Source: a virus. From it: a DNA stretch of 46,551 bases. The stretch is taken from positions 1-46,551 of the IMG/VR virus record IMGVR_UViG_3300048924_000575. One strand, 5' to 3'. The notes under the pieces are model-generated. The model searched no databases, was not told where the DNA came from, and saw only the letters and a program-made list of their open reading frames with translations. Shown here piece by piece: positions 3,241 through 9,329 of the stretch. The position numbers and the translations under genes are program-made. Numbering within the stretch: the first letter of the stretch is position 1; the number at the start of each line of letters is the position of its first letter.

Positions 3241-3903
3241 TCACGCCTCCTTCCGCTGGGACTGCTGGGCAATGGCGGCGTCGATTGCATCGCGGGCCGT
3301 GAGCCAGTTGTTGCCATCACCCCAGCCGCAAATCGGCACGTCTTGGCCGTCTGCGTCCACATGGAAGACGCGGCAGCATTCGCGGTCACGCGACCATGCA
3401 ATCCAGGCCCCATGCGTAGCGAGGAAGTCCAGCCGATCGCTGTCCAGCGCATCGCCAGCAGCGGGAGCGACGATAGCGGCGCGGGCGGCGCGCCAGATGT
3501 CGTAGGCAAGCTGGGTATCATCGTGGTCGTAATACTGGCCGCTGACCTCGAAGAAGTCGCAGTCCAGCGCAAACCCGTTGTCATCTGCCCACGCCTCAAA
3601 CGCCTGGCGCTCATCCTCCCCCGTCGCTCCGGTGGGTATAGGGTGCGCTCCGTTGTAGACGCAGCTCGATCCCTGGTACACGCCTACGCTCACGCCGCGA
3701 GGGTCGGGGTCGACGGTGACGGTCAGGGGAGGGGCTTCGGGCGCGGTGCCGAGCATGGCCCTGTACCGGGCCCCGATTTCAAGGTTCTCCCGCGCGATTT
3801 GCGAATCCAGCATCACGAGCGGCAGAGGCGCCCGGCGTGCGGCATCGAGCATTTCTTCGGTCGGCACCACAGGCACCAGCTTCCATTCGGGGTTCGTGTT
3901 CAT
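3241..3903 (-). CDS. Hypothetical phage protein
   Basis: A 220-residue acidic protein. The N-terminus (WKLVPVVPTEEMLDAA) is a common opening of phage left-operon proteins of unknown function. The central region (ERQAFEAWADDNGF, YDIWRAARAA) matches another recurrent phage module. It may be a mosaic of two common modules. It starts immediately after the small membrane gene at 3905-4060. Confidence 0.6.
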   Translation of the reverse strand: MNTNPEWKLVPVVPTEEMLDAARRAPLPLVMLDSQIARENLEIGARYRAMLGTAPEAPPLTVTVDPDPRGVSVGVYQGSSCVYNGAHPIPTGATGEDERQAFEAWADDNGFALDCDFFEVSGQYYDHDDTQLAYDIWRAARAAIVAPAAGDALDSDRLDFLATHGAWIAWSRDRECCRVFHVDADGQDVPICGWGDGNNWLTARDAIDAAIAQQSQRKEA

Positions 3904-8067: not shown

Positions 8068-8155
8068 TTGAAACGTCGAAGTGAGATTCGAACTCACGGC
8101 ATCCAGACGCTGTTCGGTTCGCTGGACTCTGACCCAACTAGACTAACGTTCCGAT
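8068..8155 (-). ncRNA. tRNA-like element C (irregular)
   Basis: On the minus strand there is a perfect T arm (GTGAG, loop TTCGAAT, CTCAC; 8081-8097) and a D arm with a 3-bp stem and GG-containing loop AGTTGGGTC (8128-8142). Between them a 6-bp stem (8101-8106 with 8122-8127) closes a 15-base loop instead of the normal 7, without U33. The acceptor arm (GAACGTT, 8145-8151) pairs with 8070-8077 only if one T is bulged and 3 bases separate it from the T arm. It is not a standard tRNA: either decayed or a mimic. Confidence 0.5.
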
Positions 8156-8202
8156 GCAACTAGCGAAGCGCATCTGCCCATCGCCTGGGCGGTACTGCTG
8201 CC

Positions 8203-8288
8203 ATCAGTGCAAGCCCCTGCTCCGCGTCCTACTCGATTCGGACTGCGCATAGACAGGGATGCGCTACCCTGCAAGGGCCTGCACTGAT
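8203..8288 (-). ncRNA. Structured RNA element D
   Basis: An 86-base segment closed by a 13-bp helix with one mismatch (9 bp ATCAGTGCA/TGCACTGAT at 8203-8211 and 8280-8288, then GCCC/GGGC). It continues TGC/GCA and encloses two hairpins: GTCC/GGAC (8226-8243) and GCGCAT/ATGCGC (8245-8264). The outer helix is too long for chance. Adjacent extra hairpins lie at 8153-8174 (GATGC/GCATC), 8176-8190 (GCCCA/TGGGC) and 8292-8308 (GCCGC/GCGGC). Strand inferred from the operon. Confidence 0.5.
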
Positions 8289-8316
8289 AGCGCCGCGTTT
8301 CGTGCGGCTACGGCTG

Positions 8317-8592
8317 CTATGCAGCACCAGGGGGAGATTGTTCCGGGACAGGCAGCAGATCCTTGATCCGCTGATTGCCGTCGCCACCGTAGGGGATGCA
8401 GTCTTTATCCCAGCCGGGCGGAAGTTTGTCGGTCAGCGTGATTTCTCCGACAACATAAATCTGTACGTCTTTGCGGGAATCTGATGCTGCTTCCTTCCAA
8501 TCCTGGCGCGCAATGCCCCACGCATCGTCTTCGTTGTCAGCCTCGACAACCATGTCCAAATCAAGCAACGTGTTCACTCGATACAGCGGCAT
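8317..8592 (-). CDS. Hypothetical phage protein
   Basis: A 91-residue protein (MPLYRVNTLLDLDMVVEAD start), acidic, with a beta-rich N-terminus and a short Pro/Gly-rich C-terminus. AAGGAG lies 7 bp before the ATG. It is the only protein gene between the two groups of structured RNA elements, so it may simply be carried along. The N-terminal strand pattern recalls small DUF-type proteins of phage RNA/ligase neighbourhoods, but I cannot assign a function. Confidence 0.6.
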   Translation of the reverse strand: MPLYRVNTLLDLDMVVEADNEDDAWGIARQDWKEAASDSRKDVQIYVVGEITLTDKLPPGWDKDCIPYGGDGNQRIKDLLPVPEQSPPGAA

Positions 8593-8615
8593 CTCGTTCT
8601 CCTTATTAATCGGTA

Positions 8616-8745
8616 TGAATCCTGAAAGAAGCGGGCGAGATTCGAACTCGCGCGCAGCGTATACCGGTGATCGATCGGCACGCCCAGGATAAGAATCGTC
8701 CCCGAGGCTCTAACCTGACTGAGCTACCGCTTCTTTCAGGATTCA
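8616..8745 (-). ncRNA. tRNA-like element E with 19-bp closing stem
   Basis: A perfect 19-bp inverted repeat (TGAATCCTGAAAGAAGCGG at 8616-8634 and its complement at 8727-8745) brackets a tRNA-like body. On the minus strand: acceptor GAAGCGG/CCGCTTC, TA, a canonical D arm (GCTC, loop AGTCAGGTTA, GAGC), then 55 bases, then a perfect T arm (GCGAG, TTCGAAT, CTCGC). The 55 bases fold as two hairpins: a 7-bp stem with a 10-base loop (ACGATTCTTA) and a second with a 9-base loop (ATCGATCAC). No standard 5-7-5 anticodon arm is visible and CCA is not encoded. Confidence 0.6.
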
Positions 8746-8760
8746 CGTGTCTGCGTCCTG

Positions 8761-9297
8761 TCACGGCGCCAGAGACTTGGGCGATTCGTCCTTAAGAATC
8801 GTTTTCTTGAATCCAACGCCAGCAGCAACGTGATAGATCACAATTCCTTCTGGATCCATGAAACCAGGAGCAGCACGGCTACCCAAAAGCGAAAGCTCGT
8901 CTATCACGCACTCCACCGTGCTTGCGCGCATCACTCCGCGATACAACTCAGGAACTACCAAACAGCATGCCGGCCGTATGCTGTCATCCGACCAGCGCGA
9001 TACGTTGAAAAGTGAAAACCGCTTGTCTGGTACCCCATAACGCCGTTGAATTCCAGCCCCCCACCATTCACCGAAATGTCGGCCGGGACCCAGCTTCAAG
9101 AGTTCGCTACGGTTTTCCTGCGCCCAAGCAGCAAACCCATAGTTGTCGGATTCAGGAGTAATCCACCGGGTACGGCTGCCTACGAACATGTCTCCGTGTT
9201 CGTTAATTGCGATTTGGGCATTTGTCCCGTCGATCTTTTCGGTGATGATGCATTCCCTAGAAAACCTGGCCATTTTTGGGAAATCTTCGAATTCCAT
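8761..9297 (-). CDS. Small RNA ligase (Rnl2-like nucleotidyltransferase fold)
   Basis: A 178-residue protein with the ordered motifs of ATP-dependent RNA ligases (RNA_ligase family): motif I EKIDGTN with the AMP-accepting Lys21, motif III FGEWWG (75-80), motif IIIa FSLFN (94-98), motif IV PEGIVIYH with E150, and motif V lysines (KK at 164-165, K169). It should seal 3'-OH/5'-phosphate RNA ends. It lacks a separate C-terminal domain. Start 9297 is chosen for AAGGAG 6 bp upstream; an ATG at 9315 is possible. It is the first gene of the pL operon, flanked on both sides by structured RNA elements, which suggests these are its substrates or partners. Confidence 0.85.
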   Translation of the reverse strand: MEFEDFPKMARFSRECIITEKIDGTNAQIAINEHGDMFVGSRTRWITPESDNYGFAAWAQENRSELLKLGPGRHFGEWWGAGIQRRYGVPDKRFSLFNVSRWSDDSIRPACCLVVPELYRGVMRASTVECVIDELSLLGSRAAPGFMDPEGIVIYHVAAGVGFKKTILKDESPKSLAP

Positions 9298-9329
9298 TCC
9301 TATCTCCTTGTTCATTCGTCAGCTCGCTC

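Follow-up and report, generated by a model that had tools for sequence, protein, structure and literature searches.

The window, as we call the whole 46,551-nt stretch of viral DNA analysed here, carries on its minus strand, read from 8745 to 8616, a tRNA-shaped RNA gene in which the outer half of the tRNA is kept and the decoding arm is replaced (Table 1). The element sits in a leftward operon, 15 nt past the stop codon of a gene for a small RNA ligase and 23 nt ahead of the next start codon. The ligase is a 184-aa, stand-alone protein of the T4 Rnl2 type, consisting of the nucleotidyltransferase part only, and has more than 100 viral relatives. Elements that share the outer stem of this one (hereafter the window group) also have linkers in common, with GCCGTGACAGGACGCAG before the element and GATTAACAAGGAGAACGAG-ATG after it, and the genes that flank them differ.

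Table 1. Features in and around the element of the window, and loci elsewhere that carry its 3' end.
Feature	Coordinates	Strand	Remark
Upstream gene, small RNA ligase (PF09414, T4 Rnl2-related)	8761..9315	-	Chance neighbour
Conserved 5' linker, GCCGTGACAGGACGCAG-ACACG	8746..8767	-	Contains the stop codon of the upstream gene
Outer helix, 5' strand, 19 nt, TGAATCCTGAAAGAAGCGG	8727..8745	-	Inner 7 nt are the acceptor-like GAAGCGG
2-nt link, TA	8725..8726	-	In the place of tRNA positions 8-9
D-like arm, GCTC-AGTCAGGTTA-GAGC, loop with GG	8707..8724	-	
Hypervariable domain, 55 nt, in the place of anticodon arm and variable loop	8652..8706	-	Hairpin with 9-nt loop predicted in its 3' part
T-like arm, GCGAG-TTCGAAT-CTCGC, abutting the outer helix	8635..8651	-	
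Outer helix, 3' strand, CCGCTTCTTTCAGGATTCA	8616..8634	-	CCA not encoded
Conserved 3' linker, TACCGATTAATAAGGAGAACGAGATG	8590..8615	-	Carries the start codon of the downstream gene and its ribosome-binding site
Downstream gene, 91 aa, no family	8317..8592	-	Same gene follows the element in L263
Loci with 3' arm and linker only: L215, L221, L225, L230, L236, L239, L243, L248, L250, L254, L256, L261, L265, L269, L273			

The arms TGAATCCTGAAAGAAGCGG and CCGCTTCTTTCAGGATTCA form a perfect 19-bp helix, as the initial annotation had described for this locus, and this helix is the sole perfect inverted repeat of at least 13 nt with arms within 300 nt of each other in the whole window. The folding energy of the element corresponds to a z score of -4.7, which none of 200 shuffles equalled. 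Its acceptor, D and T arms stand in tRNA order, and CCA is not encoded at the equivalent of tRNA positions 74-76. When applied to the short stretch, the Rfam tRNA model RF00005 scores the element at 42.5 bits (cut-off 29) with a large insert; together with the arm sequences, this confirms the earlier description of the D and T arms as canonical. ARAGORN makes no tRNA call at the element, and a fast Rfam scan of the whole window did not pick it up. A reading on the plus strand, which folds well because the helix folds on both strands, was rejected; it is on the minus strand that the two loops, D and T, read as those of a tRNA.

The stretch between the D and T arms is exactly 55 nt long, as had been counted, and the suspicion of an abnormal anticodon region proved correct: it contains neither a 5-7-5 anticodon arm with 5/5 pairs nor a 5-bp stem closing the whole insert. 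The proposal that it makes two hairpins is half supported, in that the hairpin with the 9-nt loop (GUGCCG/CGGUAU) appears in both the MFE and centroid folds while the one with the 10-nt loop does not, because that stretch competes with the D arm. The central domain of the window element has no covariation of its own.

Other structured stretches lie nearby on the same strand. At 8198-8293 there is a second long hairpin (z -4.8) with a closing stem of 21-22 bp, GCTATCAGTGCAGGCCCTTGC/GCAGGGGCTTGCACTGATGGC, and no clear D or T arms; a tRNA-like element in contig L277 has an outer stem similar to its ends, GCTATCA..TGATGGC. At 8081-8145 there is a weak tRNA-like stretch of 14.8 bits, below the cut-off, whose T arm (GTGAG-TTCGAAT-CTCAC) is canonical and whose anticodon position is taken by a 15-nt loop. 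The surrounding 480 nt are noncoding, and blocks of 166-227 nt are 90-98% identical in L226, L253 and L275. Our covariance model R1, described below, gave no match of note on the second RNA-rich stretch of the window.

Full elements with the outer stem of the window occur in 14 other phage contigs, in which the 5' strand of the helix is identical or nearly identical and the interiors differ. One of these contigs, L214, was found by an exact search for the junction of T arm and stem, and a search with the stem only gave more. All 14 relatives have a D-like arm 2 nt past the stem and a T-like arm directly ahead of its 3' strand, and the exact arm search returned one full element per record. The element of L214 has the same 19-bp stem and arms as the window around a different interior of 69 nt, while L259 and L267 have the same interior in different surroundings. 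In an alignment of nine window-group members, 99.2% of the cells are paired and 10 pairs are double-changed (0/500 shuffles), including 5/5 pairs of the D stem and 4 of the T stem; in L285, the outer stem also carries a compensatory change. A BLAST search with the element against phages, plasmids and E. coli found no close copies, and an exact search for the stem found none in 398 genomes of one phylum centred on a Rhizobiales-labelled MAG, which is not a close host.

Membership of a widespread phage RNA family, like the operon position between two genes, goes beyond what the initial annotation had noticed. The layout of this family consists of an outer stem of 7-20 bp, 2 nt, a 5-bp D-like arm, a hypervariable domain and a 5-bp T-like arm abutting the stem, and the window element shows the same order of helix, 2-nt link, D-like arm, insert and abutting T-like arm, with its outer helix above the 7-bp minimum. 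The 2-nt link is CG or CA in nearly all relatives, the D-like arm of most has 5 bp and the loop GAAGGA (GAAGGA or GATGGA across the family), and an 8-nt T loop, mostly TATCAAGC, is present in most members. The outer stem measures 7-9 bp in 42 of 58 scanned members and reaches up to 20 bp in the remainder; over the 58, the length of the central domain is 45-208 nt (median 84.5), and CCA is encoded in 2. The claim that such a molecule should not decode is well supported: the window element lacks an anticodon arm, and dozens of relatives have an unrelated hypervariable domain in its place.

Several lines of evidence indicate that the pairing is maintained across the family. Model R1 retrieved members with the same body and unrelated outer stems (L277, twice; L279; L282), and the commonest D arm, GCRGCGTGGAAGGACACGC, is a motif carried by at least 120 viral contigs. 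Among the matches listed, 59 of the 74 D-arm cases that were distinct, new and had enough sequence show a 7/7 complementary strand directly abutting the T arm, compared with 3.6% when 5' strands were swapped among loci and 0/74 in reversed sequence. In set A5, made up of 40 divergent members of the 58 scanned, 15/17 pairs covary, with 123 double-change cells against 28 expected; pairing was a selection criterion here, so that the pairing percentages of A5 are inflated by the scanner's requirement for it and the strand-swap test on the 74 cases is the fairer one.

A covariance model built from homologues had been suggested as a check, and its outcome is divided: R1 matches the window and L214, both of which were part of its training set, while R2, a second and independent model built without the window group, matches neither the window nor L214. 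R2 does match nine window-group members with E values of 8e-14 to 3e-6, recovering L227, L285, L257, L222, L259, L267, L253, L226 and L223, as well as L275 weakly. Their D and T loops, which are tRNA-canonical, set the window and L214 apart from the GAAGGA type, and neither is matched by R2, so that their membership rests on the shared 19-bp stem, the flanks and the layout. Either the family descends from a tRNA, with the window and L214 keeping the ancestral loops, or tRNA arms were recombined in. In one cultured carrier, Pseudanabaena phage Pan3 (L444:2497-2657), the central domain holds a nested tRNA-like body of 34.9 bits, with AGCGG-TA-GCTC as in the window, which points to exchange of tRNA arms into the family frame. 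Rfam searches of sampled members found no family, except that the window and one relative score as tRNA.

Besides Pan3, the cultured carriers of the family include Caulobacter phage DMCA, Komagataeibacter phages, Alcaligenes phage QDWS595 and Acidovorax phage AP1, in all of which the spot is unannotated; the element also occurs in a Sinorhizobium meliloti and a Roseomonas plasmid. R2 has matches in 4 of 100 sampled genomes, and no element was found in E. coli at BLAST sensitivity. In L277, two elements stand in tandem upstream of a phage tRNA-Arg, and the surrounding 1 kb or so (L277:5120-6140) is noncoding and rich in hairpins, with the two tRNA-like elements, a further long hairpin and the tRNA-Arg in a row. 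In QDWS595, tRNA and tmRNA genes lie within a few kb of the element; a permuted betaproteobacterial tmRNA and several tRNAs (L446:67-986 and 3473-3898) are absent from the annotation table of this record. The host of the window phage is probably a member of the Burkholderiales, as suggested by the DNA near the element, which has a 92% match to a Bordetella plasmid, and by the presence of the Burkholderiales-2 RNA in relatives.

The position of the window-group element between co-directed genes, with a ribosome-binding site directly after it, and its long and perfect helix raise the question of whether this is simply processing punctuation, in which body and helix would offer RNase P or RNase III cut sites that separate or stabilise operon mRNAs and would have no further role. 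We regard this as unlikely, albeit worth keeping in mind. Elsewhere in the family, elements are found in tRNA regions or in broad intergenic gaps where the adjoining genes may be on either strand, and a cut site needs neither a hypervariable domain nor conserved D and T loops. In addition, there are 15 other loci where the 3' arm CCGCTTCTTTCAGGATTCA and the 3' linker stand after a gene and the RNA is missing (Table 1). These loci are recombination scars or cases of reuse as a linker, and their existence at 15 junctions means that the linkers take part in mosaic exchange.

The same junctions, together with linkers that flank different genes in different phages and the identical interior of L259 and L267 in different surroundings, could be taken to mean that the element acts at the level of DNA, its repeats and linkers being homology for cassette shuffling or the ends of a small mobile element and its tRNA likeness incidental. 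This explanation is improbable, since the covariation in the D and T stems is that of an RNA, other phages keep their outer stems paired although the sequences are unrelated, the orientation to the flanks is constant and each record has a single full element.

A bacterial Y RNA, the partner of Ro60, with a tRNA-like module would be a more familiar identity, as passages of PMC7790460 and PMC12282133 that cite Chen et al. 2014 describe Y RNAs as occurring in phages, mimicking tRNA and having their ends paired into a helix. However, no TROVE/Ro60 gene was found in any of 16 records (the window record and 15 related ones) in a search for which a control genome was positive, and no Rfam Y RNA appeared among permissive matches. 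Given that Ro60 is absent, the element is not a classical Y RNA, and we consider a Y RNA identity very improbable.

Slightly less credible still, and largely refuted, is a tRNA gene that is decaying or contains an intron, or a tRNA of type II. The score of 42.5 bits with RF00005 and the canonical arms would fit such a gene, as would the existence of a separate class of phage tRNA-like genes with 39-69 nt between canonical arms; of 56 intact ones, an intron-like closing stem is present in 16, and another 4 are type II-like. The window element, on the other hand, has no 5-7-5 arm and no closing stem, L214 keeps stem and arms around a wholly different interior, and the homologues show purifying, compensatory change. 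Of the two outcomes that had been named as fatal to the original proposal, the insertion into a normal anticodon arm thus fails for want of an intron-closing stem, and the decaying gene fails on the conserved, covarying structure of the homologues. Since the window RNA belongs to a large conserved family, it is a conserved phage RNA and not a broken tRNA. The separate class itself (L095-L213) comprises at least 56 distinct genes with canonical D and T arms and a 7/7 acceptor, of which 36 lack both a normal anticodon arm and a closing stem of the intron-like kind. Finally, the T4 Rnl2-like ligase gene immediately upstream could suggest that the element is a substrate of this enzyme in repair or circularisation, but the 15 other records tested that bear the element lack the ligase (1/16 phages has both) and no element-like body occurs at 89 related ligase loci, so we set it aside as a chance neighbour and this reading as extremely improbable.

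On balance, we believe that the window element is a phage-encoded, non-decoding, tRNA-shaped non-coding RNA from a widespread and apparently undescribed phage family in which a hypervariable, structured domain replaces the anticodon arm. This identity is well supported; the function that we propose for it is an inference. The RNA would be made within a phage mRNA or a tRNA-region transcript. Its D and T loops would dock as a tRNA elbow, and the body may be excised or protected by host RNases (RNase P, RNase Z, RNase III) through recognition of either the elbow or the long helix. Terminators are not enriched downstream of the elements (3/56 against 1.3 expected), as is the case for RNAs cut from longer transcripts. 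It is established that RNase P, RNase Z and the ribosome recognise the elbow (PMC4810234), and recognition of the element by tRNA-binding enzymes, as proposed earlier, is plausible, since the element retains both arms, D and T, with their loop contacts. Most members of the family have a T loop of 8 nt and not 7, which makes a true tRNA elbow uncertain.

The finished RNA might then occupy an elbow-recognising host factor or act as a stable scaffold, with the fast-changing central domain giving it a phage- or host-specific action, for example as a decoy or inhibitor of an enzyme that handles or cuts tRNAs. It is known that phage tRNAs can rescue from, or act as decoys for, tRNA-cutting defences (PMC13096335). 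No protein family is conserved among the neighbours of the elements, the best recurrence being 3/95. More speculatively, and with considerable doubt, hypervariable tRNA-elbow RNAs may act in trans across phages against host or rival systems that handle or cut tRNAs. If so, a conserved tRNA-shaped platform that displays a diversifying RNA domain would be the RNA counterpart of hypervariable anti-defence proteins.

In phages of both Proteobacteria and cyanobacteria, annotations leave blank a structured, covarying RNA that here has no Rfam match, and a covariance model is now at hand for annotating its members. The family keeps the outer corner of tRNA, the part read by RNase P, RNase Z, modification enzymes and the ribosome, and discards decoding; the long-standing question of why phages carry non-decoding tRNA-like genes can therefore be tested directly in cultured phages. 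We found no description of the family in Rfam 15 or in the open-access literature searched. While tRNA-mimicking RNAs as such are already known, among them Y RNAs and viral tRNA-like structures, this family, with its hypervariable domain and its spread, appears to be undescribed, and there is a real chance that its function is new.

Of the known systems, 'species 1' and 'species 2' of phage T4 are stable RNAs of about 120-140 nt that are transcribed with the phage tRNAs; the family may be comparable to them as phage-encoded stable RNAs. Bacterial Y RNAs (YrlA, Ro60 partners) are likewise non-coding, tRNA-mimicking and known from phages, with ends paired into a helix, whereas the phages of this family have no Ro60 gene and its elements no Rfam Y RNA match. 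The likeness to tmRNA lies in a tRNA-like half, with acceptor helix and T arm, and a long insert replacing the anticodon arm. However, the family has a real 5-bp D stem and its insert is usually far too short for pseudoknots and a tag; tmRNA covariance models have no match at the elements, the tmRNA match in L446 lying elsewhere. From tRNA (RF00005, phage tRNAs included) the family differs in having a hypervariable domain of 45-210 nt and no anticodon arm, an outer helix of up to 20 bp and, in most members, an 8-nt T loop, a GAAGGA D loop and no encoded CCA. It resembles tRNA in that acceptor helix, 2-nt link, D arm and T arm follow and abut one another in the same way, as well as in the GG of the D loop and the TCRA of the T loop, and some of its members adjoin phage tRNA genes.
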